From Orenia metallireducens (GTDB lineage: Bacteria; Bacillota; Halanaerobiia; Halobacteroidales; Halobacteroidaceae), in NCBI RefSeq assembly GCF_003001995.1, contig NZ_PVNB01000025.1:1-59176 (forward strand): a stretch of DNA of 59,176 nucleotides, in the 5' to 3' direction. This document shows, piece by piece, positions 2,161 through 51,635 of the stretch. Position numbers and translations under genes: made by a program. Position 1 is the first letter of the stretch. Every line of letters begins with the position of its first letter. The notes beneath the pieces were generated by a model, which saw only the letters and a program-made list of their open reading frames with translations, searched no databases and was not told where the DNA came from.

Positions 2161-3735
2161 ATGAAAAGAGCTATAGCTTATATTAGAGTATCTAGAGCCA
2201 GAGACAATATGATTACTCAAGATACACAATTAGAAAAGATTAAGCAATATTGTAGATTACATGAAATTAAGCTAGTAGATGTCTACTCTGACCTTGATTA
2301 CTCTGGTCGTTCTACAGACAGACCTGGTTTTCAAAAATTATTCAAAGATATCAAGCATGGAAAATTAGACGCTGATTATTTAATGGTCTATAAGCTAGAC
2401 CGCTTTGCAAGATCAGTTACATCATTCCATAAATATATGAATGCCCTTGATAGTTATGGCATCAACTTTATCTCAATCACCCAACAATTTGATACTTCTA
2501 CTCCAATTGGAAGATTAATTCGTAATATCCTAGTAGACTTTGCCCAATTTGAGTCAGAAATGATAGCAGAAAGAGTCAAAGATAATCTTACCAAAAATGC
2601 AGCAGATGGTAATTGGAATGGTGGTCCCTTACCCTTTGGTTACGAATTAGATGAAAAAAGTAATATCTTAATTCCCAAAGAAGATGAAGCAGAGATTGTT
2701 AGAAACTTTTTTGACTGGTATTTAGAAGCTGGTGGCAGCTTTAATCAAATAGCTCAAAAAGTTAATAAAGAAGGAATTACAACCTCTAATAATAATCTAT
2801 GGGCTCCATCACGTATCGGAGAAATTATTTCCCATCCTCTTTATTGTATAGCTGATGAAAAATCTATTAATTACTTTGAAAAGAAAGAGATTAAGGTTTT
2901 TAATAAAGAGACAGCAAATGGAAAAAATGGTTTAATGAGATATAATAGACGTACTTCAGATGGAACTCTAAATGAAGAAGAAAACTGGTTAATATCAGTT
3001 GGTCACCATCAAGGACTTATACCATCAGATAAATTCATTCAAGCCCAATATAAACGTAAAAGAAGGTCAAAACGCCCTCCACGAGCTGGAACTAGTACTA
3101 AAGGACTTTTAGCCTACCTATTAAAATGTGGCAAATGTGGTCGAGCTATGACTTTTTATTCATCTACTAAGACCTTAGCTAACAATAGAAAAAAGACCTA
3201 TAGATATTATGTCTGCCGAGGAAGAAATCTAGGGAAATCAGTTTGTAATGGTCAAAGAGTGAATGCAGATAAAGTAGATGAATTAGTAATTAAGCAGATC
3301 CAAAATACAGACCATGAGAAATTTAATAATCTTCTTAATAAGGTAAGAGATGATTTAAAATACTCTATTAATAACTTAGAAAATAAAAGATTAATCTTAA
3401 AAAGAGATCTAGAACAATTCGAGAAAGAAGAAAAGAATTTATTAGATAAATTTAAAAAGACGAAGTCAGATCGATTAATATCTCTTATAGAAGATGAAGT
3501 AGAGGAGATCGCTGAAAAAAAGATTAAGATAGAGAATAAGTTAATAGAAATAGAAAATAAGTTAGATGAAAATCAATCTCAAATTTATTCAGATGAGTAT
3601 CTATTAAATAAAATACATGAGTTTAATGAAAACTTTGATGAAATGACCTTTGAAGAAAAACGTAGCAGTCTACAAAGTATAATTAATAAAATCACTTATG
3701 ATGAAGGGGATATTGAATTAGATCTATTCTTTTAA
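2161..3735 (+). CDS. Large serine site-specific recombinase (integrase)
   Basis: A 524-residue resolvase/invertase-type integrase. The N-terminal catalytic domain starts AIAYIRVS with the nucleophilic Ser at about 11, followed by DYSGRSTDRPGF and YKLDRFARS. A recombinase domain follows, then a zinc ribbon (LKCGKCGRA ... VCNG, about 320-365), then a long coiled coil (about 380-470). This is the architecture of phage and ICE large serine integrases that catalyse attP x attB recombination. It lies at the very end of the element, nine bases from the stop codon of a convergent host gene. RBS AAGGAGG; start ATG 2161. Confidence 0.93.
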   Translation: MKRAIAYIRVSRARDNMITQDTQLEKIKQYCRLHEIKLVDVYSDLDYSGRSTDRPGFQKLFKDIKHGKLDADYLMVYKLDRFARSVTSFHKYMNALDSYGINFISITQQFDTSTPIGRLIRNILVDFAQFESEMIAERVKDNLTKNAADGNWNGGPLPFGYELDEKSNILIPKEDEAEIVRNFFDWYLEAGGSFNQIAQKVNKEGITTSNNNLWAPSRIGEIISHPLYCIADEKSINYFEKKEIKVFNKETANGKNGLMRYNRRTSDGTLNEEENWLISVGHHQGLIPSDKFIQAQYKRKRRSKRPPRAGTSTKGLLAYLLKCGKCGRAMTFYSSTKTLANNRKKTYRYYVCRGRNLGKSVCNGQRVNADKVDELVIKQIQNTDHEKFNNLLNKVRDDLKYSINNLENKRLILKRDLEQFEKEEKNLLDKFKKTKSDRLISLIEDEVEEIAEKKIKIENKLIEIENKLDENQSQIYSDEYLLNKIHEFNENFDEMTFEEKRSSLQSIINKITYDEGDIELDLFF

Positions 3736-8252: not shown

Positions 8253-8804
8253 TTATAATTTAGGGATCTTGATTTTACTGATCATCAGATAAGATAGTAC
8301 TATTATCAATAAGATGAGAAGCTCCACAGAAACTGAATACTTGTAGCTAAAAAAGCTAACAAAGGACAATAAAGCCCCAGCTACAGTGATAGGTACTCCC
8401 ACATAAGTGCCATCAAATTCTGTAATATTATACCTTGCTAACCTTAATGCACCTGCCATTGGAAATAAAACTGTCAATAATAGACCAAATCCACCTAATC
8501 CTATCAACCCAATCCTCCAGACCAATATTGCTGGAGCAATACCAAAAGAAACTATATCAGCTAAAGAGTCTAGCTCTTTTCCTAAGTCACTTGTAGCTTT
8601 AAGCCCTCTAGCAAGACGACCATCAAATACATCAAACAGACCTGCCAATAATATAAACATTGGAGCCAAGTGCATCTCTTCTTGGATAATGGCTAAAATA
8701 GCTATTATTCCACAGGATAGATTCCCCATAGTCACTGCACATGGAATCAGCTTTAAATCAATAGACTCCTTGATACTTCTCTCTCTTAAAAACTCTCTAA
8801 TCAT
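8253..8804 (-). CDS. pssA: CDP-diacylglycerol--serine O-phosphatidyltransferase
   Basis: A 183-residue membrane enzyme of the CDP-alcohol phosphatidyltransferase family, which makes phosphatidylserine from CDP-diacylglycerol and serine. The family motif DG-x2-AR-x8-G-x3-D-x3-D is seen as DGRLARGLKATSDLGKELD. Several membrane helices follow. The start ATG 8804 has GGGGAGG nine bases upstream; a TTG four codons-worth upstream in the same frame is too close to the ribosome-binding site. Just upstream is a decayed gene for the next enzyme, phosphatidylserine decarboxylase. Confidence 0.9.
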   Translation of the reverse strand: MIREFLRERSIKESIDLKLIPCAVTMGNLSCGIIAILAIIQEEMHLAPMFILLAGLFDVFDGRLARGLKATSDLGKELDSLADIVSFGIAPAILVWRIGLIGLGGFGLLLTVLFPMAGALRLARYNITEFDGTYVGVPITVAGALLSFVSFFSYKYSVSVELLILLIIVLSYLMISKIKIPKL

Positions 8805-9294: not shown

Positions 9295-10401
9295 CTATTC
9301 ATTCTTAGGGTCTAAAGCATCTCTGACCCCATCTCCTAATAAATTGAAGGATAAGATGGCAATAAAAATCATCAGTCCTGGTATCAATAACCAAGGAAAT
9401 GAGGTTATCTTAGTAATCGATTGAGCTGAACTTAACATATTACCCCAGCTAGCATCAGGCTGTTGAATACCTAAACCAATAAAGCTCAGACCTGACTCCA
9501 TCAAGATATAACCAGGAATAGCCAAAGTTGCTCTAACAATTACATAGGTCGTTGCTGTTGGTAAGATATGTTTCCAGATTATTCGAAGATCACTAGCACC
9601 TAAGGATTTAGCTGCTACTACATAATCCTGATCCTTAATCGACATGACCATTCCTCTAATTACCCGAGCCATCCCAGCCCAACCAATAAAAGAAAGAATT
9701 AAGATTATTAAAAAGAATCTAAAAGCAGAAGATAACTTAATTGGTAAGACTGCAGCCAAGGCTAACAATAAATAGAAGCTAGGAATACTTAAAATCACCT
9801 CTACTATTCTCATTAAGAGACTATCAATCCAGCCCCCGTAATACCCTGCAACCCCCCCAATTAGCAGACCAAAGATACTGGTAATCAATATCCCTGCAAA
9901 GCCTAAGAACATAGATACCCTTCCTCCAAATAATATTCTAGTAAAAATGTCCCTGCCATAATTATCAGTTCCCATTAAGAAGAGATGAGCAGGTTCATCT
10001 ACCCCTACAAGATGAATAGTGGTTGGGATAAGTTTCAAAAACCTATACTCACTATCTTGATAGAGAAGTTTGATGGGATATTTTTTACTTTTATCCTCTT
10101 GATACTTTGCCCAGCCTGTCGCTTTAGTAGCATAGACATAGGGCCAAGTCAGTCCATTAGCATCTTTAATATGAATCTTAGTAGGTGGATGGAAGAAATG
10201 ATTCTTAAAAGCCTGATTTGGGTGATAAGGAGCTAAAAACCCAGCCAGAATAACCATTAGATATAAAGCTAAAATAATAACAGCAGCTATAGTTGCCATT
10301 TTATGCTTAGCTAATGATGAAAGTTTATCTCTCCAAAAAGAGTATTCTACTCCATTAGAACTCTCTTTATTCATTCCTTCTTTAATCTTTACTTGAACCA
10401 T
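9295..10401 (-). CDS. Oligopeptide-type ABC transporter permease (OppC family)
   Basis: A 368-residue permease. It has an N-terminal membrane helix (IAAVIILALYLMVILAG) and a soluble insert of about 110 residues, then the BPD_transp_1 domain with MGTDNYGRDIFTRILFGGR and the coupling motif AAKSLGASDLRIIWKHILP. It ends LLGDGVRDALDPK, a hallmark of OppC/DppC. The long insert before GTDNYGRD is longer than in E. coli OppC. RBS GGAGGG. It lies 14 bp after oppB-like and forms the heterodimeric channel with it. Confidence 0.9.
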   Translation of the reverse strand: MVQVKIKEGMNKESSNGVEYSFWRDKLSSLAKHKMATIAAVIILALYLMVILAGFLAPYHPNQAFKNHFFHPPTKIHIKDANGLTWPYVYATKATGWAKYQEDKSKKYPIKLLYQDSEYRFLKLIPTTIHLVGVDEPAHLFLMGTDNYGRDIFTRILFGGRVSMFLGFAGILITSIFGLLIGGVAGYYGGWIDSLLMRIVEVILSIPSFYLLLALAAVLPIKLSSAFRFFLIILILSFIGWAGMARVIRGMVMSIKDQDYVVAAKSLGASDLRIIWKHILPTATTYVIVRATLAIPGYILMESGLSFIGLGIQQPDASWGNMLSSAQSITKITSFPWLLIPGLMIFIAILSFNLLGDGVRDALDPKNE

Positions 10402-11468: not shown

Positions 11469-13193
11469 TTATTTTTCTAAATAAAGTTCTTCTAAATTCC
11501 ACAATACTCCACCTAAAGCATTAGGTCTTACATTTTTTAAAGTATTTCTAACACCATAAATAGAATCGGCAACTGCAGTATAGATAACAGGAACCTGATC
11601 TGCTACAATCTCTTGCCACTGGTCATAATACTTCTTACGCTCCTCATAATCAGAGGTAGTAGCTCCCTTTAAGAAGAGCTCATCTATTCTTGCCTCCCAC
11701 TGGGTAGCTGGCTCTTGCTGCTTGGGATTCCACATATGGAGATTACCACTAGATTTCCAAACATTGGAGCCACTATTTGGCTCTGGACTTCCAGTAAGAT
11801 AGAGGAAGAAAGCATCCCAAGTATATTCACTGGTCAACTGTCTAACTAGCTTACTAAAGTCAATCGGAATAGCATGAACTACCATCCCTAACTCTTTCCA
11901 ACCATTAGCGATAATATTTAAATTGGCTTCACTTAATTCATTGCCTGCATTGGTCACAAAGGTAAACTCTACAACTCGACCATCTCGGTCTATTAGTTGT
12001 CCTTGATCATTCCAGCTAAAACCACCTTTCTTTAGCTCTGCTCTAGCTTGATCTAAACTATAAGGATATTTTCTAATATCAGGATTTAGAAATCTCTTAT
12101 TAGGAGCACTGACTGCATTAAAGTCAGGCTGACCAAAACCGGCATAGACCTGATTAATAATAGTCTCTCGATCTACTGCATAAGCAGCTGCCCTTCTAAA
12201 ATGGATATTTGTAAACCATTCATACTTCCAAGGCTGTTCTTTAACGTTTGGATTATTAGGATTTTGGTTAAAGGAGATCAACGATTTAAACCAAGTCGGT
12301 CCAGCATCGTATAAGGTGAAGTTCTTTTGCTCCTCCATCGCCTTCATCCTATTATAATCACTATTCTTAATCCCTACAAGGTGGGTCTCACCTTTTTCAA
12401 ATTTAAGCACCTGAGTCTCTCTGCTTCCTGCAATCTGACGGACTATACGGTCGATATAAGGTAGTTGATTGCCTTCTTGATCCTTCTTCCAATAATATGG
12501 GTTACGTTCAAAGACAAGCCTCTCACCAGTCTTATAATCAACAAATTTATAAGGTCCAGTCCCCACAATCTCACTTACCTTAGTATCTATTCCCCAGCTT
12601 TGATTAAACTTCCCTGCTTGCCAAGTCTGATAGAGCTTATGCTTTGGTAAGATTACAAAACCATTTAATTGACTCAACAGAGGTGCATAGGGCTGAGGTA
12701 GAATTAACTTAACAGTATAATCATCTACTTTTAGTACTTCTATCTTTTCACCACCGATAATCATACCATCCTTAGAACTATTAGGAATATTCTCATCATA
12801 GACTACTTGATAGGTAAAGATTACATCATCAGCACTAAAGGGCTCTCCATCATGCCATTTGACATTCTCTCTTAAATGGAAGGTCCATTTTAAGCCATCT
12901 TCACTGACTTCCCAACTCTTAGCCAACTCTGGTTCTATCTCTAAGGTCTCAGCATTACGATCAGTTAAACTCTCCAAAACTATACCTACTATCTCTGAAT
13001 GTTCTGAGCTAGTAATTGGATTAAAACTTCCTGGATCACTTAATAAATCAGCAGTAATTAAAGTTCCTCCATACTTGTCATCTCTACTTGACTGCTCACT
13101 TTTAGCAGACTCCTTTCCACCACAAGCTGTTAAAATCAGACTTGTAGCTAAAAGCAAGACTACCATTAACTTTAGATTTCTCATCTTATTCAT
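11469..13193 (-). CDS. Oligopeptide-binding lipoprotein (SBP family 5, OppA type)
   Basis: A 574-residue lipoprotein. The signal peptide ends in lipobox LTAC with Cys at about 24, followed by a Ser/Lys-rich linker. The SBP_bac_5 fold has the typical WTFHLRENVKWHDGEPFSAD, GTGPYKF and RRAAAYAVDRE segments. First gene of the importer operon; binds peptides, or nickel/sugars in some relatives. RBS GAGAGGAG with ATG 13193. Membrane-anchored outside the cytoplasmic membrane. Confidence 0.92.
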   Translation of the reverse strand: MNKMRNLKLMVVLLLATSLILTACGGKESAKSEQSSRDDKYGGTLITADLLSDPGSFNPITSSEHSEIVGIVLESLTDRNAETLEIEPELAKSWEVSEDGLKWTFHLRENVKWHDGEPFSADDVIFTYQVVYDENIPNSSKDGMIIGGEKIEVLKVDDYTVKLILPQPYAPLLSQLNGFVILPKHKLYQTWQAGKFNQSWGIDTKVSEIVGTGPYKFVDYKTGERLVFERNPYYWKKDQEGNQLPYIDRIVRQIAGSRETQVLKFEKGETHLVGIKNSDYNRMKAMEEQKNFTLYDAGPTWFKSLISFNQNPNNPNVKEQPWKYEWFTNIHFRRAAAYAVDRETIINQVYAGFGQPDFNAVSAPNKRFLNPDIRKYPYSLDQARAELKKGGFSWNDQGQLIDRDGRVVEFTFVTNAGNELSEANLNIIANGWKELGMVVHAIPIDFSKLVRQLTSEYTWDAFFLYLTGSPEPNSGSNVWKSSGNLHMWNPKQQEPATQWEARIDELFLKGATTSDYEERKKYYDQWQEIVADQVPVIYTAVADSIYGVRNTLKNVRPNALGGVLWNLEELYLEK

Positions 13194-17985: not shown

Positions 17986-18293
17986 CTGTTAATTGTCACT
18001 TCCTTTTATCCTCAAAGTTAATAACTTTATCTTTATATAATTAAATTCATCTTTTTACCACTAAATCCTGCTCTCCTAATGCATTAAAGTAATTAAACTA
18101 ATATCTATCCTAAATTAGTGAAAATAATATCAAATTTTCTTGAGATCTACTAAATATAATTATGAATGATTTAATTCAAACAATCGAGTAAGGCCTCTTC
18201 TGTGTAAATGATTAAGGTCATCATACTGTTCTTAGGTAGAGTGACAACAGTATGATTACCATTGTATCATAGCTATATTCTGCTGTAGCAATA
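17986..18293. other. Gene-free region with a short Rhs-like remnant
   Basis: The first 180 bases are AT-rich with no gene. Between about 18180 and 18290 the minus strand gives a short YD-repeat-like piece (ATAEYSYDTMVIILLSL) before stops appear. It is probably the most decayed end of the Rhs array that begins here. Confidence 0.35.
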
Positions 18294-18334
18294 AGAAAAC
18301 CTAGCTGACAGTTAAAATATCAGCTAGGTTTTCT
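18294..18334 (-). terminator. Inverted-repeat terminator at the distal end of the Rhs array
   Basis: A perfect 15-bp stem, AGAAAACCTAGCTGA/TCAGCTAGGTTTTCT, with an 11-base loop and a TTATT tail on the minus strand. It closes the last Rhs remnant (18350-18525). Confidence 0.8.
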
Positions 18335-18349
18335 TGAAATTTTTAGGTA

Positions 18350-18525
18350 GCTAAAGTAGTTCCTAAACTATCCTCTACCTCAATTGGACGATTATTGGCA
18401 TTGTAGCTAAAGATGTATTCTCCGTTATTGATTAGGTTACCATTATCGTCATAGATATATTCTTGGTCATCGATAGCGATCAGTTCATTCGCTACATATT
18501 ATAGGTGTAATTGGTAATGTAGTAA
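18350..18525 (-). pseudogene. Rhs YD-repeat remnant with no toxin domain
   Basis: On the minus strand this translates as ITNYTYN, then past a stop as ELIAIDDQEYIYDDNGN and LINNGEYIFSYNANNRPIE, ending soon after VEDSLGTTLAT. It is collinear with residues in the middle of the large Rhs fragment at 24871. It is enclosed by two perfect terminators and has lost its core end and toxin tip. Clearly non-functional. Confidence 0.8.
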
Positions 18526-18526
18526 T

Positions 18527-18568
18527 AAGAAGACCTAGATAATAATTAATTATTATCTAGGTCTTCTT
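18527..18568 (-). terminator. 42-bp perfect palindrome terminator after the 18575 immunity-like gene
   Basis: AAGAAGACCTAGATAATAAT pairs perfectly with its reverse complement. It starts seven bases after the stop of the gene at 18575 and has TT runs on both sides, so it may work in both directions. Confidence 0.85.
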
Positions 18569-18574
18569 AAAATT

Positions 18575-19105
18575 TTAAGGATAATTATTCATTATTTCTT
18601 TAAAATCATCATCTAATTTTATTATAACTACTTGTGTTGAAAAGGGTAATTTACTTGATTCAATCAAATCTTCTGAAAAGTTTTTATCTGATATTAATAG
18701 TTGGTTAGTCTGTAGTGAATAATTGGTACTTATATTATTAAACATGTTATTACTATAAAAAACTACCGAATGAGTTGCTTTAGGTAAATTTTGAGTAGAA
18801 TTTTCTTTAATATTAATCTGAGAATTTTTAATTGCACTTGTTAACATATTGATTACTTTTTTATCTTTGTCATTCTCTATAAGATAATCTTTATCTCCCT
18901 TTATTTCTCCATTTTCAATATATTTAAATGAATGAATAGATATTTTATCGACTTTTCCTAAGTCTAAATCATTATAAATATCTTGACCTGTAATTTTATC
19001 TGCCTGTTTACTCTCTTGAGAGACATATTTTACGATTAAGAAACCTATTGAAGTTATTATAGTAATCATTAGTACAGTAATTAATATTTTATTATTTCTA
19101 TTCAT
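18575..19105 (-). CDS. Candidate immunity protein for Rhs tip E
   Basis: A 176-residue protein with one N-terminal membrane helix (ILITVLMITIITSIGFLIV) and an exported or cytosolic domain with no recognised family. It follows the Rhs fragment at 19126 by 20 bp and is followed at once by a terminator, the usual place of an immunity gene in toxin-immunity pairs. RBS GGGGG lies rather far (about 13 bases) from ATG 19105. Immunity role is inferred from position only. Confidence 0.5.
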   Translation of the reverse strand: MNRNNKILITVLMITIITSIGFLIVKYVSQESKQADKITGQDIYNDLDLGKVDKISIHSFKYIENGEIKGDKDYLIENDKDKKVINMLTSAIKNSQINIKENSTQNLPKATHSVVFYSNNMFNNISTNYSLQTNQLLISDKNFSEDLIESSKLPFSTQVVIIKLDDDFKEIMNNYP

Positions 19106-19125
19106 GAGAATCTTATTTCCCCCTC

Positions 19126-19980
19126 TTATTGAACAAATCCTGGTAAATAAATATTAATTTTATTGGCTCTATAAGGATAAAGTAGGTTACCTTTCATTAG
19201 AACATGAGTGGTTAATTCAATCCTTGAAACTGTAATACCTTTAGGGATAAATACACTTAATTCATCATCTTCATCAGCATCCAAAGCATTAGAGTATCCT
19301 TCACTTACAAAAGGATTATATTTTGATGAATATAACCATTCACCCTGTGGACTATCAACATAGACATTAATTGTTCTTCCTACTACATTGTTACTACCAC
19401 TACTCAAATTTATATAATCACTGATATTTACTAGATTATCATTTTTAAAGGATTTGGTATCTATGTTAACAAATAGCCTTGATTGATAATTCATAACATT
19501 TGGGAATATAAAAGAGGAAAATATACCGATGTCATCAATATCTCCTCCAATACCTCCTTCAAAATAATTCATTAATGGACTATACATCATATAACCAGTT
19601 GTAGTTTGCTCTAAGTGCTCTATACCAAATAGACTGAGAACTGACTTCCAATAATGTCCACTAGGGTCAATTAACATCACAGGATTATTCTCTGCATAAG
19701 CATATTGATTTATCTTCTGTACTGTATCCCTACGAATAAATCTTCCAATCTCAGGGTCATAGTACCTTGCTCTTAAATAGTAGAGTCCCGTCTCTTCATC
19801 ATAATAGTAACCTGCATATCCATATGGGTTCTCTGTTGCCATACTTCCACTCTGCGATAGAATATTACCCCAAGCATCATAGTCATACTGGGCTACTATA
19901 TTACCTAGCTCATCACTGAGAGCAATGACATCACCATGACCGTTCAAATGATAATAGTAGGTGATTCCACTTCTAGTCAT
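19126..19980 (-). CDS. Rhs 3' fragment with toxin-like tip E
   Basis: A 284-residue fragment of an Rhs protein. YD-repeat/core residues 1-105 contain YDAWGNILSQSGS, YYDEETGLYYLRARYY and the core end GRFIRRDTVQKINQYAY then NNPVMLIDPSG. After DPSG, about 170 residues form a variable C-terminal domain of no recognised family. The Rhs homology starts abruptly at about 19998, fused to the end of the preceding cassette. The first ATG is internal to the Rhs core, with no ribosome-binding site and no signal peptide, so it is probably silent. Confidence 0.75.
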   Translation of the reverse strand: MTRSGITYYYHLNGHGDVIALSDELGNIVAQYDYDAWGNILSQSGSMATENPYGYAGYYYDEETGLYYLRARYYDPEIGRFIRRDTVQKINQYAYAENNPVMLIDPSGHYWKSVLSLFGIEHLEQTTTGYMMYSPLMNYFEGGIGGDIDDIGIFSSFIFPNVMNYQSRLFVNIDTKSFKNDNLVNISDYINLSSGSNNVVGRTINVYVDSPQGEWLYSSKYNPFVSEGYSNALDADEDDELSVFIPKGITVSRIELTTHVLMKGNLLYPYRANKINIYLPGFVQ

Positions 19981-20024
19981 AGTTACAGGGTTATTCTGTT
20001 TTATACCCTACTTTGATTCATATT

Positions 20025-20216
20025 TTATTTTACTAACCTATAAATAAATTTTACAATTTTCACTATCAATGGTCCTATAATATACATTGCTATTAATAAT
20101 GATAACATCATGTATACAGATTTTTCATTAGACCATTTGGCAGCAAGTTTTAATAAAATAAAGCATAAAATTATCTTAATAATTGAATTTAATATTTTTT
20201 CAAATATTGTAATCAC
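20025..20216 (-). CDS. Small membrane protein, candidate immunity for tip D
   Basis: A 63-residue protein with two hydrophobic helices (IIKIILCFILLKLAAKW; MMLSLLIAMYIIGPLIVKIV). It begins at GTG 20216, five bases after the stop of the Rhs tip D gene, so translation may be coupled; the ribosome-binding site is weak. A small membrane protein fits the hydrophobic character of tip D, which could act on membranes. Both points are inference. Confidence 0.4.
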   Translation of the reverse strand: MITIFEKILNSIIKIILCFILLKLAAKWSNEKSVYMMLSLLIAMYIIGPLIVKIVKFIYRLVK

Positions 20217-20221
20217 CTAAA

Positions 20222-20623
20222 TTATCTATAAATTTTTTTAGCTACCCAAGTAGCTGCAGTAATTGCTGAACCCCAACTAATACCATAAATTGCTTTATAA
20301 ATTATACTATCCCTAAAAAATATTCTAGCTGCTGTTTGTATTATAGGAACAGGAAGACTTAAAACTGCAGCTGAAGCTACATTCCATGCCCAATCTTTAA
20401 AGTTAAAATGTTTATATGCATTCTTCCAACCATAGCGTCCAATTAAATAAACTCCATATCCTAAAGTACCATAAAATATAGCTTTCCCAATAAAGTAGGC
20501 TGCTACAGACAAAGTAAACCTCCCACTAGGATCAGTATACATCACAGGATTATTCTGCACATAAGCATATCTATTCAAAAACTGTGGATCTCTTCTAAAC
20601 TCTTCATCATCAAACTTCTTCAT
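20222..20623 (-). CDS. Rhs 3' fragment with hydrophobic toxin-like tip D
   Basis: A 133-residue fragment. It begins with the alternative core end KKFDDEEFRRDPQFLNRYAY, then NNPVMYTDPSG, followed by about 100 residues with several hydrophobic helices (VAAYFIGKAIFYGTLGYGVY; WNVASAAVLSLPVPII). Upstream, to 20712, a short YD-repeat piece (VAIDNQEYIYDENGN) is joined out of frame to the core end by a deletion near 20655. No ribosome-binding site. Probably a silent cassette; the tip may be pore-forming (inference). Confidence 0.65.
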   Translation of the reverse strand: MKKFDDEEFRRDPQFLNRYAYVQNNPVMYTDPSGRFTLSVAAYFIGKAIFYGTLGYGVYLIGRYGWKNAYKHFNFKDWAWNVASAAVLSLPVPIIQTAARIFFRDSIIYKAIYGISWGSAITAATWVAKKIYR

Positions 20624-20713
20624 TGTATCCCGATTAATAAAGCGACCAATTCTCCATTATTATCTAGGTTGCCATTTTCATCATAGATATATTCTTGATT
20701 ATCGATAGCTACT

Positions 20714-20751
20714 AAAAAGGCATAAGAGAATTAATTCTCTTATGCCTTTTT
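20714..20751 (-). terminator. 38-bp perfect palindrome terminator of cassette C
   Basis: AAAAAGGCATAAGAGAATT is followed directly by its exact reverse complement, giving a T5 tail on either strand. It lies 98 bp after the stop of the immunity-like gene at 20849, and the next Rhs fragment begins on its other side with no gap. Confidence 0.9.
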
Positions 20752-20791
20752 AAAATTTAACCATGCCGCTATAGATAGAAAAAATCGATAT

Positions 20792-20852
20792 TTAGGAGGT
20801 AGGTGGCTAGATGATTAGGAACTGCCTAACTACCTAACGTTCTACCTCCTAA
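20792..20852. repeat. TAGG-rich inverted repeat
   Basis: The 11-bp arms TTAGGAGGTAG and CTACCTCCTAA flank a 39-base centre that itself holds several degenerate TAGGT/ACCTA units. One arm overlaps the stop codon of the gene at 20849. It looks like a small dispersed intergenic repeat rather than a terminator; no second copy was found in the window. Confidence 0.5.
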
Positions 20853-21460
20853 CCATCAAAATAAAACCAATTTCCTTTAATATGGGTTATAATATTATAA
20901 TTTGAGTTTTTGTTTCCACGCAACTTTCCTGGAATCTCATTATAAATCCAATGATGTTCATTAACCTTAGGTATATACATATATCCATGGGGAACAATAT
21001 GAAATCTATCTATTGTTAATATCACAAAATTTTCAAAAATAGGGGAACTAATAGAATGAAAATTGTAACTACTAAAGAATTTCTTCCAGTAATTTAATTC
21101 TTTCTTTGTCAGTTCAATTGATGATAGTGCTTCTTCTAAAGATTCAAAATTTATATCCTCATAGTTAAAATACTTATTCTCTTTTTCGTTTATAATTAGG
21201 GTTTTAAAAAGTTTAACATCTCTATTATAAGGATAATAGTTAAATACCCAACGATCTTTAGAATAAGAAATTGAAATTATAGTATCATATTTCATAAATT
21301 CTCTTAGATATTTTAAATAAACAGCTTGATTAACTGTTAATAATTTAACTGCTTTTTTTTCTCTTTTATCTGGATTGTCAATAACAAAATTGGAGATAAT
21401 TAGAAGTATAGCAATAACTGTTATTACACTTTTGAAAATAATTTTATTTTTATTAGTCAC
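20849..21460 (-). CDS. Candidate immunity protein for Rhs tip C
   Basis: A 204-residue protein with an N-terminal membrane helix (VITVIAILLIISNFVI) and a soluble domain of about 170 residues with no family recognised. The start is GTG 21460, with AGGAGG seven bases before; the longer frame from 21490 runs over that ribosome-binding site. It lies 62 bp after the Rhs tip C stop, the place expected for its immunity gene. Confidence 0.5.
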   Translation of the reverse strand: MTNKNKIIFKSVITVIAILLIISNFVIDNPDKREKKAVKLLTVNQAVYLKYLREFMKYDTIISISYSKDRWVFNYYPYNRDVKLFKTLIINEKENKYFNYEDINFESLEEALSSIELTKKELNYWKKFFSSYNFHSISSPIFENFVILTIDRFHIVPHGYMYIPKVNEHHWIYNEIPGKLRGNKNSNYNIITHIKGNWFYFDG

Positions 21461-21522
21461 GATATTCCTCCTAATAATTAGCAGAAACATTTAATTTATA
21501 TTTAAAATTTTGCTGTTTACTA

Positions 21523-22425
21523 TTATTCACCAGACCAATAAAGCTGATATCCCATTCTAATAGCTCTTGAATCTCTAGGGTCATCACCTAAATTTATAAA
21601 ATTAGTTAACCAAAATCCTAAAGTTGTGGTATTATCTAAAATAGTTTGAGCAAAACCACCACCCATTAAAGATATACCTAATGGCCAACCTCTTGATGCC
21701 ATAATATATCCCCATGCAATATTTCCTATTGTATCAGCTTTATAAGCCTGATCTTGAAAGATAAATACTTTATTAATATAGTTTTTCTTCATATCCCAAT
21801 CTGCTCCGCTTGGTGATTTCTTTAAGACTTCACTAATTGTAAACATCCACGGTATTAATGGATTCCCTTTTCGTTGATTAACAAAATCCCAAAAAATTTC
21901 ATCTCCATTTTCAATAAGACCTGCATAATTATCTCCCAATGACCCCTCTAATCTCCAAAAATTTGAACCATCTGATGATTGAATATAATAACTGTTCCAA
22001 AAAGATTGTATTCTTTTTATTACTTTACCTTTTGAATTATAATAAATTCTGTCTAAACCACTAGGGTCAATTAACATCACAGGATTATTCTCTGCATAAG
22101 CATATTGATTTATCTTCTGTACTGTATCTCGACGAATAAATCTTCCAATCTCAGGGTCATAATACCTCGCTCGAAGATAATACAATCCCGTTTCCTCATC
22201 ATAATAGCATCCTGCATAGCGATATGGATTCTCCTCTGCCATACTTCCACTCTGTGATAAGATATTACCCCAAGCATCATAGTCATACTCAGCTACAACC
22301 TGACCATTTTCATCACTTAAGGCGATTACATCATCATGACCGTTCAAGTGATAGTAGTAGGTGATTCCATTTCTAGTCATAGTTACAGGGTTATTCTGAG
22401 CATCATAGGTATAATCAGCAATCAT
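21523..22425 (-). CDS. Rhs 3' fragment with a toxin-44-like tip (tip C)
   Basis: A 300-residue Rhs fragment. The same frame is open upstream to about 22707 (TNYTYNTANELITVNDQEYI), so the cassette is longer than its first ATG shows. The core end is GRFIRRDTVQKINQYAY then NNPVMLIDPSG. The tip (about residues 125-300) contains GADWDMKKN, ADTIGNIAWGYIMAS and DDPRDSRAIRMGYQLYW, which resembles the Bacterial toxin 44 family; this is from memory and needs a profile search. No ribosome-binding site or signal peptide. Confidence 0.75.
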   Translation of the reverse strand: MIADYTYDAQNNPVTMTRNGITYYYHLNGHDDVIALSDENGQVVAEYDYDAWGNILSQSGSMAEENPYRYAGCYYDEETGLYYLRARYYDPEIGRFIRRDTVQKINQYAYAENNPVMLIDPSGLDRIYYNSKGKVIKRIQSFWNSYYIQSSDGSNFWRLEGSLGDNYAGLIENGDEIFWDFVNQRKGNPLIPWMFTISEVLKKSPSGADWDMKKNYINKVFIFQDQAYKADTIGNIAWGYIMASRGWPLGISLMGGGFAQTILDNTTTLGFWLTNFINLGDDPRDSRAIRMGYQLYWSGE

Positions 22426-22727
22426 GGTGCCAATCTCATTAGTTTCGTAAATCAGACGACCTTGAATATCATAGTGATAATGGATAGTTCCTTCGGTAGT
22501 AGTCTTGGACTTGCGAAGACCTCGATAGTCATAGGTGTAGGTGGCGATAGTAGTTCCTGAGCTATCCTCTACCTCGATTAAGCGATTATTGGCGTTGTAG
22601 CTAAAGAGGTATTCTCCATTATTGATTAGGTTACCATTGTCGTCGTAGATATATTCTTGGTCATTGACAGTAATTAGTTCATTGGCAGTATTGTAGGTAT
22701 AATTGGTAATGTAACAATAAAAATACC

Positions 22728-22751
22728 TAGATGATAATTAATTATCATCTA
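22728..22751 (-). terminator. Inverted repeat after the orphan immunity-like gene
   Basis: TAGATGATAATT is followed by its exact reverse complement AATTATCATCTA. On the minus strand there is no strong T run, but the flanking sequence resembles the other cassette-end hairpins (CCTAG...). It lies 41 bp after the gene at 22793 and 20 bp before the Rhs homology of tip C. Confidence 0.6.
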
Positions 22752-22792
22752 CTATTCAAAGCTATTTAATATTCAAATTAATCTTATCTAAA

Positions 22793-23290
22793 TCACCAAG
22801 ATTCTTCAATTACATATATTTTGTCTTCCTTTAAAGTAGCTAACATCCAACTATTATCTTCTTTTAGTTTTAAATAATATAGGTTATTTTCTTCTATGAG
22901 GAAAGGATATTCTTTAAAGGGATCTTTATCCCAAGTGTTTATTACATGAGTTTGAAATTCATTAACTCTTTCTTTTAATTGCTTATAATTATTATCAGTT
23001 ATTTTATCCCAAATGTCTGCTTTTCTTACTTCTTCTAAATTTTCTTGATTATAAGTTAATATAGTGTAGGTCTCTCCTTCACCTTGAGGACCAAGTTTAT
23101 AAAATTCTTTTGTAACATCTTCTGGTTTAGGTACTTTAAGATTATATATCCTAACATACATATCCCAGTAAGCATATTTGGTAAAATTGAGTTCATACCA
23201 CTTGTAAATTAATGGTAAGCATAGTGTTATCAGTAGTATTATTAATAGTAATATAATTATCTTTTTTCTATAATTAAAATTAATTTTAAT
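22793..23290 (-). CDS. Orphan immunity-like membrane protein, possible ATT start
   Basis: From the first ATG (23161) the frame encodes 122 residues, but it stays open to an ATT at 23290 placed after GGAGAGGAG. That extension adds a membrane helix (KIIILLLIILLITLCLPLI) and gives about 165 residues. No ATG, GTG or TTG exists in the extension, so either ATT is used or the start ATG has been lost by mutation. The gene is cut off from tip B by the terminator at 23357. Function inferred only from position in the array. Confidence 0.45.
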   Translation of the reverse strand: MKINFNYRKKIIILLLIILLITLCLPLIYKWYELNFTKYAYWDMYVRIYNLKVPKPEDVTKEFYKLGPQGEGETYTILTYNQENLEEVRKADIWDKITDNNYKQLKERVNEFQTHVINTWDKDPFKEYPFLIEENNLYYLKLKEDNSWMLATLKEDKIYVIEESW

Positions 23291-23356
23291 CTACTCCTCT
23301 CCTATCTAAAACTAGATCATTTATAAGATTTTTGACTATAATAATTGCTTAATTTA

Positions 23357-23392
23357 ATAAGTGAGAAGTTTTAATTAAAACTTCTCACTTAT
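23357..23392 (-). terminator. 36-bp perfect palindrome terminator after tip B
   Basis: ATAAGTGAGAAGTTTTAA pairs exactly with TTAAAACTTCTCACTTAT. It lies 38 bp after the tip B stop, separating tip B from the gene at 22793. Confidence 0.8.
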
Positions 23393-23430
23393 ATAACAAC
23401 TAATATGATTAGTAATGAAATAGGTTTATT

Positions 23431-24120
23431 TTAAATGTATATGATAAAATCTGCTTTCCACTCATATTCAGTAATTACACCAGTTTTTTGACTATAATAA
23501 CCTAAATTATTAGCATAATTAGAAAATCCTTCCCATGGTCTTTCCTCAGTAAAATCATATATATCTCCCATAGATACATAAACCTTTAATTTTCCACTGT
23601 AGTGCCTATAGCCCCATACATTATAACTTGCATGTTGTATAGCATAATATAAATCTCCTGTTTCAAATTCGATTGAACTATTGAAAGAAAACCAACTTCT
23701 ATTTCCAATCTCTTTTTTTAATTTAGTTCTAAATTTATTTGATTGAGAAACCTTTTGAGCTAATAAACTATCTTGACCAAAATAAAGGTCTTGCCCATAT
23801 CCAAATAAACCATGATTAAATAATTTATAAGATAAATCATAATTTCTAGGTAATAAATAAGCGGCAGCACCTATTGACAGTACATTTCTAGCAAAATTAT
23901 AGGTATTTGCATAGGGAATAGTTATAGCCCAATTACCATTAGAATCCATTAACATCACAGGATTATTCTCTGCATAAGCATATTGATTTATCTTCTGTAC
24001 TGTATCCCTACGAATAAATCTTCCAATCTCAGGGTCATAGTACCTTGCTCTTAAATAGTAGAGTCCTGTCTCTTCATCATAATAATACCCTGCATAACGA
24101 TATGGATTAATCTCTGCCAT
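23431..24120 (-). CDS. Rhs 3' fragment with toxin-like tip B
   Basis: A 229-residue fragment from the first ATG; the frame is open upstream to about 24250 through a different core allele (VVYYHYDQRGHLLDHSDKAG). It has the core end GRFIRRDTVQKINQYAY then NNPVMLMDSNG, so the usual DPSG is changed to DSNG. The tip of about 165 residues (for example FNHGLFGYGQDLYFGQD) has no family recognised. A frame break at about 24262 joins it to a short YGQEYIYGDNGN piece. Probably a silent cassette. Confidence 0.7.
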   Translation of the reverse strand: MAEINPYRYAGYYYDEETGLYYLRARYYDPEIGRFIRRDTVQKINQYAYAENNPVMLMDSNGNWAITIPYANTYNFARNVLSIGAAAYLLPRNYDLSYKLFNHGLFGYGQDLYFGQDSLLAQKVSQSNKFRTKLKKEIGNRSWFSFNSSIEFETGDLYYAIQHASYNVWGYRHYSGKLKVYVSMGDIYDFTEERPWEGFSNYANNLGYYSQKTGVITEYEWKADFIIYI

Positions 24121-24328
24121 ACTACCACTTTGTGATAGAATATTACCCCAAGCATCATAGTCATACTCGGCTAATACATTACCTGCTTTATCAGAGTGAT
24201 CAAGCAGATGACCCCGTTGGTCATAGTGATAATAGACAACTGTTGCTGTTATAGTTGAAGGGATATTCCCCGTTATTGATTAAGTTACCATTATCACCGT
24301 AGATATATTCTTGACCATATAAATGAAT

Positions 24329-24370
24329 AAAGAATCTAGATGATAGTCTAAGCTATCATCTAGATTCTTT
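24329..24370 (-). terminator. Hairpin terminator of cassette A
   Basis: A perfect 18-bp stem, AAAGAATCTAGATGATAG/CTATCATCTAGATTCTTT, with a six-base loop and a T-rich tail. It begins at the stop codon of the gene at 24370. Confidence 0.88.
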
Positions 24371-24567
24371 TAAGGCTCTGTTAACAATAATACAATAAGT
24401 GGTGAGATTAATCCTAGAACTACTAAGATAATTTTTAACCAAAACATAGCTTTATCCGCTGTATTTTGATACTTATTTTTTAGTACCTGATATCCTCCAA
24501 TTAACCCCATAAAACCCAAAGAGTAGAGTAGTATATTGTGGATAATTTCTATAAAGTTACTAAACAT
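24370..24567 (-). CDS. Small two-helix membrane protein downstream of tip A
   Basis: A 65-residue protein with two membrane helices (ILLYSLGFMGLIGGYQVL; FWLKIILVVLGLISPLIVLL). The start ATG 24567 has AGGAGG four bases upstream; the longer frame to 24597 runs over it. It follows another small membrane protein by 19 bp and is followed at once by a terminator. Two tandem small membrane genes after a hydrophobic Rhs tip suggest immunity to a membrane-acting toxin (inference). Confidence 0.5.
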   Translation of the reverse strand: MFSNFIEIIHNILLYSLGFMGLIGGYQVLKNKYQNTADKAMFWLKIILVVLGLISPLIVLLLTEP

Positions 24568-24586
24568 ATTACCTCCTAAATTTAGC

Positions 24587-24859
24587 TTATAGAACAACTC
24601 TCTCTACAATCAATCTAATTGCATATGTTATAGCTGCAAAAAGTATTACTTTCCATGCTAAATTAAAATGTCCTTCACGAAAAGTTTGTTTTTTTCTTTC
24701 CAATTTTTCTCCCTCGATTATACCTGTATACATCAAGAACAATAAAATAAAAATAAGCCAAATTTTATCTGCTATTACTGCTGTTTCTAAAGATATAATA
24801 CCATAAATAAAGAATATAGTCATTATAAGCATAATTATTATACGAGTTTTATTATACAT
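24587..24859 (-). CDS. Small three-helix membrane protein, candidate immunity for tip A
   Basis: A 90-residue protein with three hydrophobic helices (RIIIMLIMTIFFIYGIISL; IWLIFILLFLMYTGII; AWKVILFAAITYAIRLIV). The start ATG 24859 is preceded by GGTGGGAG and lies 11 bp after the stop of the large Rhs fragment, the expected place for the cognate immunity gene. No family recognised. Confidence 0.5.
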   Translation of the reverse strand: MYNKTRIIIMLIMTIFFIYGIISLETAVIADKIWLIFILLFLMYTGIIEGEKLERKKQTFREGHFNLAWKVILFAAITYAIRLIVERVVL

Positions 24860-24870
24860 AGACTCCCACC

Positions 24871-26934
24871 TTAATCAGATAATTTATCTATTCCAGCTCC
24901 AATTAGTGTTTTTAAATCATTATATAATTGACCATAAGCCCATTTGGCTTCAGGAATTGGTTTTAGTTCATCCAATATACTTGCTGAATATATATATTCT
25001 TCAAAAATATCAGGATAACCAGTTACTAAAGTCATCATAGTAAGTATTGTATCCACAGTAACATATACAGTATCATTTCCCATATAAATTATATTTTTAG
25101 TCAAATTCCATCTATCTTTTTGACCTAACATCTTACCAATTCCTCCAAAAAAATTTCCTGCTCCATGGGCAATTAATGGTATACCTATAATAGCACCATA
25201 GCCAGAAGAACTAATGGAAGCTCCAGTAACAAATTGACCTGCACCTCCAAATGCTTGCCAAAAACCACCAATAAGATCATCCCAAAAAGAGTATAAACCA
25301 CTAGGATCAGTATACATCACAGGATTATTCTGAGTATAGAGATATCTATTCAAAGACTGTGGGTCTCTTCTAAACTCTTCATCATCAAATTTCTTCATTG
25401 TATCCCGACGGATAAATCTCCCAATCTCAGAATCATAGTACCTTGTTCTTAAATAGTAGAGTCCTGTCTCTTCATCATAATAATACCCTGCATAACGATA
25501 TGGATTAATCTCTGCCATACTACCACTTTGTGATAGAATATTACCCCAAGCATCATAGTCATACTCGGCTACTACCTGACCATTCTCATCACTTAAAGCG
25601 ATTACATCACCATGACCGTTCAAATGATAATAGTAGGTGATTCCACTTCTAGTCATAGTTACAGGGTTATTCTGGGCATCATAGGTATAATCAGCAATCA
25701 TGGTGCCACTCTGATTAGTTTCGTAGATCAGACGTCCTTGGAGATCATAGTAATAGTTGATAGTACCCTCAGCAGTGGTTTTAGACTTGCGGAGACCTTG
25801 ATAGTCATAGGTGTAAGTAGCAATAGTAGCTCCTGTGCTATCCGTTACCTCAATTAGACGATTGTTGGCATTGTAGCTAAAGAGATATTCTCCATTATTG
25901 ATTAGGTTACCATTCTCGTCGTAGATATATTCTTGATTATCGACAGTGATTAGTTCATTGGCATCATTATAGCTATAATTGGTGGTAGTGGTACTATTAT
26001 CTTGAGTGACTGATTTCTCAGTCCGATTGCCGACACTGTCATAGCTATAGTTGATCACAGTACCATCTAGTAGAGTCTCTTCTACTAAGCGATTTAAATC
26101 ATCATACTGATAGCTGACGCTTCCTTGAGTGGTAGTCACACTAGTGCGATTACCATTGGCATCATAGTTATATTCAAACTCCTCCAATAATTCACCTACA
26201 GGAGCAAAGAACTCTCCATTACCACTATAATTTCTAACTAGCTGTAAGCGATTGGCAGCATCATAGTCAAAGGTGGTATAACTGCCATTATTACAGAGAG
26301 CAGATGAGACATTGCCCCGTTCATCATAGGTAAATTCAGCTCGATATCCATAATAATAATAGATTCCAATTAGCTGATTTAAGGAGTTATAGGTTAGAGT
26401 ATCAGTTGTAGCTAAATCACTGACTGTAGTGAGATTACCATTGCGATCATAGGCAAAGTCCCAGCGTTTCAGACCATCATAGTAGACTTCAATTAAGCGA
26501 TTAAGCTGATTATAAGCATAGGATAGCTGATTCCCTGTAGGATAGGTGGTTTCAGTTCTGTTACCTACATCATCATATTCAAAGCTGATAGTCTGACTAA
26601 GGGGATTAGTAATACTACTTAAGAGATTAAATTCATTATAGCTATAACTGCTTTGATTATTCTTAGCATCAGTGACTGTGACTAAATTCCCAGCTGAATC
26701 ATAGTCATAGAGGGTCTGATTTGAGTTAGGGTCAACTACTTCGGTCAATAGATTTCTTAAATCATAATTATAAGTGGTACTATTTCCTTTAGCATCAGTA
26801 TAGCTAGTCAGATTACCTAAATCATCATAGTCATAGAAGATTGTATTATCTAAAGGGTCAGTGATACTAGTTACATAATTCTTACCTTCATCATAGCTAT
26901 AGGCAGTTATTGAAGCATTCTTCTCTAGTCTCAT
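24871..26934 (-). CDS. Largest Rhs/YD-repeat fragment with hydrophobic tip A
   Basis: A 687-residue fragment with about twenty YD repeats (residues 1-470), a core (YDAWGNILSQSGS; DEETGLYYLRTRYYD) and the alternative core end RRDTMKKFDDEEFRRDPQSL. This leads to NNPVMYTDPSG and a Gly-rich hydrophobic tip of about 140 residues (IGIPLIAHGAGNFFGGIGK). The frame is open 5' to about 27125, adding a jelly-roll-like piece ending TGTAWFDAMRLE, where a TAG stop and a terminator end it. No start codon with a ribosome-binding site and no signal peptide, so the 5' part of the gene is missing. Confidence 0.85.
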   Translation of the reverse strand: MRLEKNASITAYSYDEGKNYVTSITDPLDNTIFYDYDDLGNLTSYTDAKGNSTTYNYDLRNLLTEVVDPNSNQTLYDYDSAGNLVTVTDAKNNQSSYSYNEFNLLSSITNPLSQTISFEYDDVGNRTETTYPTGNQLSYAYNQLNRLIEVYYDGLKRWDFAYDRNGNLTTVSDLATTDTLTYNSLNQLIGIYYYYGYRAEFTYDERGNVSSALCNNGSYTTFDYDAANRLQLVRNYSGNGEFFAPVGELLEEFEYNYDANGNRTSVTTTQGSVSYQYDDLNRLVEETLLDGTVINYSYDSVGNRTEKSVTQDNSTTTTNYSYNDANELITVDNQEYIYDENGNLINNGEYLFSYNANNRLIEVTDSTGATIATYTYDYQGLRKSKTTAEGTINYYYDLQGRLIYETNQSGTMIADYTYDAQNNPVTMTRSGITYYYHLNGHGDVIALSDENGQVVAEYDYDAWGNILSQSGSMAEINPYRYAGYYYDEETGLYYLRTRYYDSEIGRFIRRDTMKKFDDEEFRRDPQSLNRYLYTQNNPVMYTDPSGLYSFWDDLIGGFWQAFGGAGQFVTGASISSSGYGAIIGIPLIAHGAGNFFGGIGKMLGQKDRWNLTKNIIYMGNDTVYVTVDTILTMMTLVTGYPDIFEEYIYSASILDELKPIPEAKWAYGQLYNDLKTLIGAGIDKLSD

Positions 26935-27137
26935 AGCATCAAACCAGGCTGTTCCTGTCTGGTTATAGTAATAGAAGTAAACCTCTACTTGACTAAAGGC
27001 TTTATCAGGTGTGATCTCAGCTACAATATGTTGCCACCCTTCTTTACTAGTATCAAAGTCATTGGCATTACTCCAATCTACCTCTCCATCATCATAATAA
27101 ATTGCTAGACGCTTTTTGATTATGAACTACTCAATAA

Positions 27138-27182
27138 AATAAAGAAGAAGGGCTCTTCTTTGAGAGCCCTTCTTCTTTTATT
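27138..27182 (-). terminator. Rho-independent terminator after the propeller gene
   Basis: The long stem AAAGAAGAAGGGCTC/GAGCCCTTCTTCTTT is followed by TTATT. It ends the gene at 27215; Rhs homology begins about 13 bp beyond, so the Rhs array seems to have been joined at this point. Confidence 0.88.
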
Positions 27183-27214: not shown

Positions 27215-27907
27215 TTATTGTAATTTACCTCTTGCTGTTACTACATAGGATTTACCAGTTGTTGTACTAATGGAGATAGTCCCATCTTCAGCTACTACTG
27301 GAGCCTTTAATTCTCCACTACCAGCTAATTTGATACTCCATTTCTCTTCTCCATCACTATTTAGCGCATATAAGAAACCATTCTCTACACCAAAGTAGAC
27401 AGTGCCATCTTCAGCTACTGCTAAATCAGTTAACGCTAATTTCTCATCCTCATCATCAGCTAAAATCAGACTTCTATCATTATTATCCTCTACTGGAACT
27501 TCAAACTCCCACTTCAACTGACTATCTGCTTCAACAGCATATAAAGTACCTGTACTAGTCCCTACCAAGATAGTCCCATCACTTGCTACTACTGGTGAGG
27601 TCAACTTGGCATTCTTGAAGATAGCAAATTGCCACTTCAAATCACCAGTTGCATCAATTGCATATAAGAAGTACTTATTATCAGTAAAGTAAATCATCTC
27701 ATCAGCTACAGCTGGAGTAGTATCTGCTGCTATCTTCTTAGCTTGATTATACTTGCTATAAGTATAACTCCAATTCAGCTCACCATCTCTAGCTACTGAA
27801 TAGATAGCTCCACCATCTTGTACTATATCTCCAACCTCTGCCATTACATTAGAAACTGACATAAAGACCAACATCAACATAATCATAAACATTCTCTTAT
27901 TAAACAC
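27215..27907 (-). CDS. Secreted PQQ-like beta-propeller protein
   Basis: A 230-residue protein with a signal peptide (MLMLVFMSVSNVMA) and at least four PQQ/WD-like blades (YFTDNKYFLYAIDATGDLKW; GTSTGTLYAVEADSQLKW; YFGVENGFLYALNSDGEEKW). It is shorter than the BamB family, so it may be half a propeller. The start is GTG 27907; an internal ATG at 27892 is possible. Exported; likely a binding or scaffold protein. Monocistronic. Confidence 0.75.
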   Translation of the reverse strand: MFNKRMFMIMLMLVFMSVSNVMAEVGDIVQDGGAIYSVARDGELNWSYTYSKYNQAKKIAADTTPAVADEMIYFTDNKYFLYAIDATGDLKWQFAIFKNAKLTSPVVASDGTILVGTSTGTLYAVEADSQLKWEFEVPVEDNNDRSLILADDEDEKLALTDLAVAEDGTVYFGVENGFLYALNSDGEEKWSIKLAGSGELKAPVVAEDGTISISTTTGKSYVVTARGKLQ

Positions 27908-44449: not shown

Positions 44450-45349
44450 TTACAAAATAAATCGATAAGATTTCTCAATCAAATCCCTAGCCACATCAAT
44501 ATCTTCTACACTCTCTACTCTAACTTCTAAATTTCCAGTTCCGTAATGGCCAATATCACTGACATCCCTTAATCGCTCGTCAGCTAAATCAACTTCAATA
44601 GGATTTAGGGATAAATAAATTAATAAATGCTTCTTATGTATTTCCAAGCAGGCAAAATTTCTAATAGTCCTATATGCTATATAAAACTTCCGGTAACTTA
44701 CTGTTATATCATCACCCAAAAGTAAGATAAATTCCTGAAGTTCTTCAAATAGATCAATAGTTAATTCAGTTCCTTTTGCCTTATGATCATCTAAACAATA
44801 ACTCTTTTCTATTCTCTCTTCAGTTGATTTTTTCGGTGCTGAATAATCCACTTCTTCATTAGAGGTTAATATATTAATATTTAATAAATCCTCTTCAAAA
44901 AGCTGATATTGAATTAGTTCAATTGGTCTTCCCATCTGAGCTACAGCATAGGTATCATATTTATTAAACGTTTCAGCAATACATAATACTCGTGGTGAAG
45001 ACCAATCAATCTCTATCTTCTTACCTAGCTTATCTCTAACAAGTAATTCAAAGTCTCCTTGATGATCCATTAGCCAGTCTAGATAAAATAAAGCTTGATT
45101 GATAATATTTTGACTTTTATTACGCTTATATTCTAAGATTACTGGTGAGTTATTTTCATCTATTCCTAGAGTATCCATTCTTACTCCATGTCGTTCTCCA
45201 GTTGAAAATTCACTGGCTAAAAATTCAATCCCGAATATCTCTTCTAAATTGGCTTCTATTAAGTTTTGGAGCTCTTTTTCTAAACTAACAGTTGCGCGTT
45301 TGAGTTGTGTGGCTTGACCTTCTTGGATTTTATATATGTTGAAAGACAT
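44450..45349 (-). CDS. DUF91/DUF5655-type protein with PD-(D/E)XK nuclease signature, end of BREX operon
   Basis: A 299-residue protein. Residues about 20-130 resemble the NucS-like (DUF91) nuclease fold. D59 (GVRMDTLGID) followed by E73 and K75 in PVILEYKRN fits the D...ExK active site. Residues about 200-299 resemble DUF5655, with RDVSDIGHYGTG near 267. ATG 45349 follows AAGGTG and lies 27 bp after pglZ. It occupies the place of brxL in a BREX type 1 operon. Nuclease activity and a BREX role are inferred; no catalytic residue looks missing. Confidence 0.7.
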   Translation of the reverse strand: MSFNIYKIQEGQATQLKRATVSLEKELQNLIEANLEEIFGIEFLASEFSTGERHGVRMDTLGIDENNSPVILEYKRNKSQNIINQALFYLDWLMDHQGDFELLVRDKLGKKIEIDWSSPRVLCIAETFNKYDTYAVAQMGRPIELIQYQLFEEDLLNINILTSNEEVDYSAPKKSTEERIEKSYCLDDHKAKGTELTIDLFEELQEFILLLGDDITVSYRKFYIAYRTIRNFACLEIHKKHLLIYLSLNPIEVDLADERLRDVSDIGHYGTGNLEVRVESVEDIDVARDLIEKSYRFIL

Positions 45350-45376
45350 GGTAAACACCTTCTCTTTAATTTTATG

Positions 45377-47914: not shown

Positions 47915-47956
47915 AACCTCACCCATCCTTATATTAAAACCAGATAATAGTTTATA

Positions 47957-48001: not shown

Positions 48002-48007
48002 TTATCT

Positions 48008-51532: not shown

Positions 51533-51635
51533 ACATAACACCCCTTTAAGTGCAGATTAATAGAGTATGGTATTAGATTATAGATATTATAACCTATAGC
51601 CTACTGTTAAATAAAAAATAAACTCTATCTATTAT

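Follow-up and report, generated by a model that had tools for sequence, protein, structure and literature searches.

A probable headless and decaying array of displaced Rhs tips in Orenia metallireducens

Introduction

Why should a bacterial genome hold the 3′ ends of seven Rhs genes in a row and, it seems, no full-length Rhs gene to go with them? The question is raised by a 59,176-nucleotide stretch of Orenia metallireducens DNA (RefSeq assembly GCF_003001995.1, contig NZ_PVNB01000025.1, positions 1 to 59,176; hereafter the window), in which seven Rhs/YD-repeat 3′ fragments lie in tandem, head to tail, on the minus strand from 27123 down to 18180. A first-pass annotation had described the locus as a set of silent toxin-tip cassettes, each insulated by its own terminator and exchangeable into an expressed Rhs gene through the shared core. 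Its observation was mostly right and its interpretation half right; the locus is probably a decaying, headless derivative of the rhs tip-displacement arrays described by Jackson et al. (2009; PMC2935791).

Array Organization and Absence of a Head Gene

Five of the seven fragments carry distinct C-terminal tips past the conserved end of the core (NPVM..D..G), and no similarity among these tips was detected, which bears out the earlier claim of five different C-terminal domains. All six fragments reported previously were recovered at the same places and on the same strand, however a seventh scrap at about 18180–18280 had been missed (Table 1). Even the longest fragment, unit 1, aligns only with residues 1116–1758 of the 1853-amino acid protein that heads an array in another genus (genome G005), and is therefore itself a 3′ fragment. 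No Shine-Dalgarno sequence precedes the first ATG of any toxin fragment in the array, in agreement with the description of the units as silent; they are displaced Rhs tips that lack start signals for translation. Tips 1, 3 and 5 are intact; the cores of units 2 and 4 carry internal deletions, a stop codon occurs in unit 2 as well, and units 6 and 7 lack a tip. The locus is in a state of partial decay in which the immunity genes are preserved best.

The gene that should precede such a string was sought throughout the 4.1-Mb draft assembly (99.96% complete, 95 contigs). Every core match and every RHS_repeat match of the assembly falls within the array, and a full-length Rhs gene did not turn up. 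A query with the N-terminal 554 residues of a related head protein likewise had no match in the assembly, while it matches genomes G001, G005, G014, G025 and G030. A full-length Rhs gene with a matching core, whose presence the first-pass annotation had made a test of its reading, was thus not found in this genome but is present in relatives.

Each of the five tips, and not four as first counted, is followed by one or two small open reading frames (ORFs) in the immunity position, all with a membrane-like segment. A Shine-Dalgarno sequence is present at imm1a, imm1b and imm3 and more distant at imm5; imm2 and imm4 have no convincing start codon. Among the tips themselves, tip 3 matches Ntox44 (PF15607) with 46.1 bits against a cut-off of 24, and tip 1 gives a weak match to DUF4225 at 25.5 bits, slightly under the cut-off of 25.9; the profile search placed tips 2, 4 and 5 in no known family. 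Tip 5 shares 33% identity with a tip in the array of genome G014, and its predicted structure is mostly beta (predicted local distance difference test score, pLDDT, 62), for which a fold search of the PDB returned nothing significant (best E 8e-3, low TM-scores). The prediction for tip 2 was uninformative (pLDDT 30), a comparison of tip 3 with solved structures gave no match, and PADLOC reported nothing relevant within the array.

Table 1. Features of the Rhs array and its boundaries, in window coordinates.
Feature	Coordinates	Strand	Description
Hairpin	27141..27178	-	Terminator-like, end of PQQ-propeller gene; 16-bp perfect stem, T-rich tail, -25.6 kcal/mol; unit 1 begins ~18-27 nt later
Unit 1	24871..27123	-	Rhs 3′ fragment, 750 codons, no start before 26934; RHS_repeat E 6e-63, Rhs_assc_core; tip 1 = 24871-25290, DUF4225-like
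imm1a	24587..24859	-	Putative immunity, small membrane protein; three transmembrane-like segments, Shine-Dalgarno
imm1b	24370..24567	-	Small membrane protein; two transmembrane-like segments, Shine-Dalgarno; 42% identity to ORF after a G002 unit
Hairpin	24329..24370	-	After imm1b; 18-bp perfect stem, -23.9 kcal/mol; CTAGNTRATA palindrome
Unit 2	23431..24318	-	Rhs fragment, core deletion and one stop; Rhs_assc_core E 5e-21; tip 2 = 23431-23925, no known family
Hairpin	23357..23392	-	Between tip 2 and imm2; 16-bp perfect stem, -18.7 kcal/mol, T-poor tail
imm2	22793..23285	-	Open frame, N-terminal membrane segment; Shine-Dalgarno-like site without canonical start; first ATG 23161
Hairpin	22728..22751	-	After imm2; 10-bp perfect stem, -9.8 kcal/mol
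Unit 3	21523..22710	-	Rhs fragment; Rhs_assc_core E 9e-26; tip 3 = 21523-22050, Ntox44 (predicted RNase toxin)
imm3	20849..21460	-	Immunity position; Shine-Dalgarno before GTG, N-terminal transmembrane segment
Hairpin	20713..20752	-	After imm3; 18-bp perfect stem, -23.0 kcal/mol
Unit 4	20222..20710	-	Rhs fragment, large internal core deletion; tip 4 = 20222-20512
imm4	20025..20216	-	Two transmembrane segments; no convincing start; 60-64% identity to ORF after G005 head
Unit 5	19126..20001	-	Rhs fragment, no preceding hairpin; Rhs_assc_core E 4e-26; tip 5 = 19126-19656, no known family
imm5	18575..19105	-	Immunity position; N-terminal transmembrane segment; 34% identity to ORFs beside a G005 array
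Hairpin	18526..18569	-	After imm5; 20-bp perfect stem, -26.1 kcal/mol; palindrome family of 24329 hairpin
Unit 6	18346..18525	-	Tipless core scrap; 74-80% protein identity with unit 1 core
Hairpin	18293..18335	-	After unit 6; 18-bp stem, -26.0 kcal/mol
Unit 7	18180..18280	-	Degenerate tipless core scrap after last hairpin; blastn vs unit 1 core E 3e-6 and collinear second piece

Core Mosaicism and Tip Exchange

Recombination has made mosaics of the cores within the array. No polymorphic site in alignment columns 436–661 distinguishes unit 1 from unit 2, although the two are 54–65% alike immediately before this block. For units 2 and 5 the likeness is 98–100% in windows at about 630–720, with a run of agreement unbroken to column 800, such that unit 2 is composed of unit 1-like and unit 5-like core (permutation p 2e-4). 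The ratio of nonsynonymous to synonymous divergence (dN/dS) between core pairs is 0.10–0.24, so that most of the divergence arose while the cores were coding, as expected if each piece once belonged to a working gene.

Exchange between lineages was found for tip 4 when the tips were compared across relatives. This tip is 79% identical to that of the intact Rhs protein of G005, and the similarity at the DNA level begins in the pre-tip linker (20598) and ends about 20 nt beyond imm4 (20004), with no terminator inside. Synonymous divergence (dS) between the array and G005 is 0.46 in the tip and about 2 in the core, a difference which shows that tip 4 and imm4 were transferred together after the cores had split. 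Decoupling of tip from core on an intact gene elsewhere was seen for this one tip of the five. Recombination in the shared core, as had been suggested, is visible in the mosaic cores. No expressed Rhs gene that could receive a tip was found in the genome.

Hairpins and Seams

Nine perfect stems of at least 10 bp occur in the window, five of them inside the 9-kb stretch of the array; the array hairpins at 22728–22751 and 18293–18335 were found in addition to these five by reading and folding. Folding energies range from -18.7 to -26.1 kcal/mol in six of the seven array hairpins, the hairpin at 22728 being the weak one. Six of the seven fragments start 0–45 nt past a hairpin, compared to 0.25 expected at random positions (permutation p ~1e-5), although the control takes no account of the preference of both features for gene ends and the statistic therefore shows adjacency, not design. 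The hairpins that had been assigned to most units as terminators are real and lie mostly between units, but one of them (23357) separates tip 2 from imm2 and none lies between imm4 and unit 5. A scan for promoters gave no excess over shuffled sequences.

Some of the hairpins resemble one another. The palindrome CTAGNTRATA is found in the hairpins at 18535 and 24336 and nowhere else in the 4.1-Mb genome, and hairpin plus seam (the junction of a terminator with the core fragment that follows) at 22689–22751 and 18497–18559 share 87% identity, so that at least some of the array terminators are related copies. The proposal that the modules are insulated by design is not supported; a simpler account is that each module keeps the terminator of the operon that it once ended.

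Related Arrays in Other Genomes

Intact heads followed by fragment units are found in G005, in G002 (contig 7) and in G014. The last of these (L037–L039) has a head with an open frame of 3265 codons and then about 15 fragment units, in which the first part of the tip is mostly common to the units and no hairpins lie between them. Fourteen units of this array start at core position 279–313 of 450, nearly all at 302–313; both units of the G005 array at 0.36 Mb start at position 179, and units 2, 3, 4 and 6 of the present array at position 222–232. A shared core start is therefore a tendency within one array, with a position that varies between arrays, and fits an inherited seam, passed on by duplication or by seam-carrying circles, and not a common recombination site.

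Some of the units in G001, G002, G005 and Anoxybacillus come after a hairpin. In Anoxybacillus rupiensis DSM 17127 (L056), an identical hairpin at 8407–8435, 9441–9469 and 12624–12652 lies 11 nt before three Rhs fragments, and the adjoining seam is the same or similar in all three; the sole other copy in this 3.7-Mb genome has three mismatches and precedes the head gene. A hairpin before every unit was considered as a general rule and rejected, as none of the 14 non-head units of G014 has one; the arrangement is recurrent, not universal. IS110-like transposase ORFs were observed inside two Rhs arrays, adjoining tips (L029, 11959–13314; L056, 6382–7694).

Genomic Context

A small secreted PQQ/BamB-like beta-propeller gene (27215–27907) lies directly upstream of the array. 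In G002, a genome of the same genus, a 74% identical gene neighbours Rhs and secretion genes, and the corresponding place is found downstream of it in the hfq-dapF interval (contig 3, 182.5–197.5 kb; L133), where a type II secretion/pseudopilin-like cluster, recognized by reading, is followed by headless Rhs units of a distant core clade. In G001, the stretch between hfq and a SWIM-type gene gave no match to either the PQQ gene or the array. The hfq-dapF interval is a variable island, and a single deletion, taking away a secretion cluster together with the 5′ portion of an Rhs head, would give the present arrangement.

The unit boundaries show no integron-like conserved recombination site, as the seams differ among units and between arrays, though copies do recur within one array. 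An origin from a phage or plasmid was considered and set aside, with no near DNA match in phage and plasmid collections. Elsewhere in the window are a recombinase-like ORF (2161–3735), about 15 kb from the array, and a complete-looking bacteriophage exclusion (BREX) defence cluster at 44450–56504, with strong PADLOC matches for BrxA, BrxB, BrxC, PglX and PglZ together with a PDC-S18 protein.

Origin of the Array and Alternative Explanations

In the history that we propose, an ancestral secreted Rhs (YD-repeat) gene would have repeatedly acquired modules of tip and immunity gene through homologous recombination within the core, each gain displacing the prior module (3′ core, tip, immunity gene and operon terminator) downstream into a silent position, possibly by way of circular intermediates or duplication. 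The recurrent seam would then be the point where one operon's end meets the truncated core of the operon that follows. Later loss of the promoter, the secretion part and the first ~1115 codons of the expressed gene would leave what is now seen, namely untranslated tips, some immunity genes that may still be translatable, and core scraps. Several points weigh against this history. No pair of strains was seen to differ by a single displacement event; pure decay would not predict the intact appearance of some immunity genes; the toxin and immunity activities are putative; and the assembly is a draft, such that a head gene could lie in a gap between its 95 contigs.

Decay following displacement has to be weighed against readings in which the array still serves a purpose. 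Conservation of the array for its immunity genes, with the toxin fragments as passengers, would protect against relatives that deploy the same tips. Such a role is possible though doubtful: Shine-Dalgarno sequences stand before imm1a, imm1b and imm3 and before none of the toxin fragments, another genus deploys tip 4 on an intact gene, and an orphan immunity gene is expressed in E. coli EC93 (PMC3150448), but imm2 and imm4 lack convincing starts. If the hairpins terminate transcription as predicted, no upstream read-through would cross the array, unlike the co-transcribed EC93 case, and expression of the immunity genes would depend on internal promoters, for which the scan scored no higher than shuffled sequence. 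We consider it quite improbable that the array is a working store of silent tips, insulated by the terminators and held in reserve to be exchanged into an Rhs gene that the same cell expresses. The mosaic cores, the three intact tips, the heads of relatives and the proven recombinational activation of an orphan tip in Salmonella (PMC3967940) would all suit a store, yet neither a head gene nor a head N-terminus is in the assembly, and units 2, 4, 6 and 7 are damaged.

The hairpins admit further readings. That they are sites of recombination or breakage marking cassette boundaries, and not merely terminators, is very unlikely, since operon ends are expected to hold terminators anyway, hairpin sequences vary between taxa and partly within the array, the 14 units of G014 have a near-constant start and no hairpins, and the transferred tip 4 module has no terminator within its homology; these outweigh the proximity of six of seven fragment starts to a hairpin (45 nt or less), the family of hairpins found only in the array within this genome, and the A. 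rupiensis hairpin and seam that are identical before three units and otherwise present only as the three-mismatch copy before the head. A more elaborate proposal is that Rhs tips in Bacillota travel as cassettes of core start, tip, immunity gene and terminator, in which a heritable seam, composed of the terminator and the opening bases of the core behind it, would supply the right-hand homology for exchange and silence the displaced module. The terminator would then have a function within the cassette. The identical seams of A. rupiensis and the array-specific hairpin family described here are compatible with such a system, which we regard as speculative and rather unlikely. Displacement followed by decay is retained as the probable origin of the array.

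Comparison with Known Systems

Strings of dissociated rhs tips, for which circular intermediates were proposed, were described by Jackson et al. (2009; PMC2935791). The present array shares with them core fragments that belong to one clade but end in different tips, the lack of translation starts, the degeneration of some units, and the occurrence of displaced tips attached to genes elsewhere. It differs in that no intact rhs gene heads the string, as one does in G005, G002 (contig 7) and G014, that the fragment starts cluster at one core position, and that strong hairpins, a feature unmentioned in that paper, separate most units. The locus is therefore filed as a headless derivative of a Jackson-type array and not as a complete member.

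Orphan cdiA-CT/cdiI and rhs-CT/rhsI modules, likewise found in multi-module arrays, have the same order of a startless toxin fragment followed by an immunity ORF, which in some units of the present array may be translatable. Poole et al. (2011; PMC3150448) described orphan modules in E. coli EC93 that lack starts, are co-transcribed with the main gene and express their immunity, and Koskiniemi et al. (2014; PMC3967940) showed activation of an orphan tip by recombination in Salmonella. Whereas the EC93 orphan is co-transcribed with its main gene, the modules here are separated by terminator-like hairpins, the main gene is absent, and roles are predictions from the DNA. Polymorphic toxin cassettes in general were surveyed by Zhang et al. 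(2012; PMC3482391), with toxin-immunity cassettes beside RHS toxins and Ntox44 among the toxin domains, as in the present array; this genome, however, has no full toxin gene. A parallel in hairpin arrangement is the A. rupiensis array, in which core fragments with different tips each start 11 nt past a hairpin terminator, but which has an intact head of 1883 codons and three copies of a hairpin and seam with near or full identity, whereas the hairpins here are only partly related. The word "terminator" is absent from the main texts of PMC2935791, PMC3150448, PMC3967940 and PMC3482391, although others may have noted the feature, and a literature search on Rhs in Halanaerobi- returned nothing relevant.

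The best-documented displaced Rhs tips are those of Proteobacteria, which lie downstream of a complete main gene. The O. metallireducens array looks like the last stage reached once such a gene is lost, with silent tips and immunity genes, some of them translatable, outlasting the weapon, and its mosaic cores and the module common to two genera provide sequence-level support for tip displacement in Bacillota. The recurrent seam between terminator and core separates two views of orphan modules, as co-transcribed stores of immunity or as transcriptionally sealed spares. Compared with the systems above, the kind of locus is known but its state is unusual, and the seam is its one recurrent and little-noted feature.

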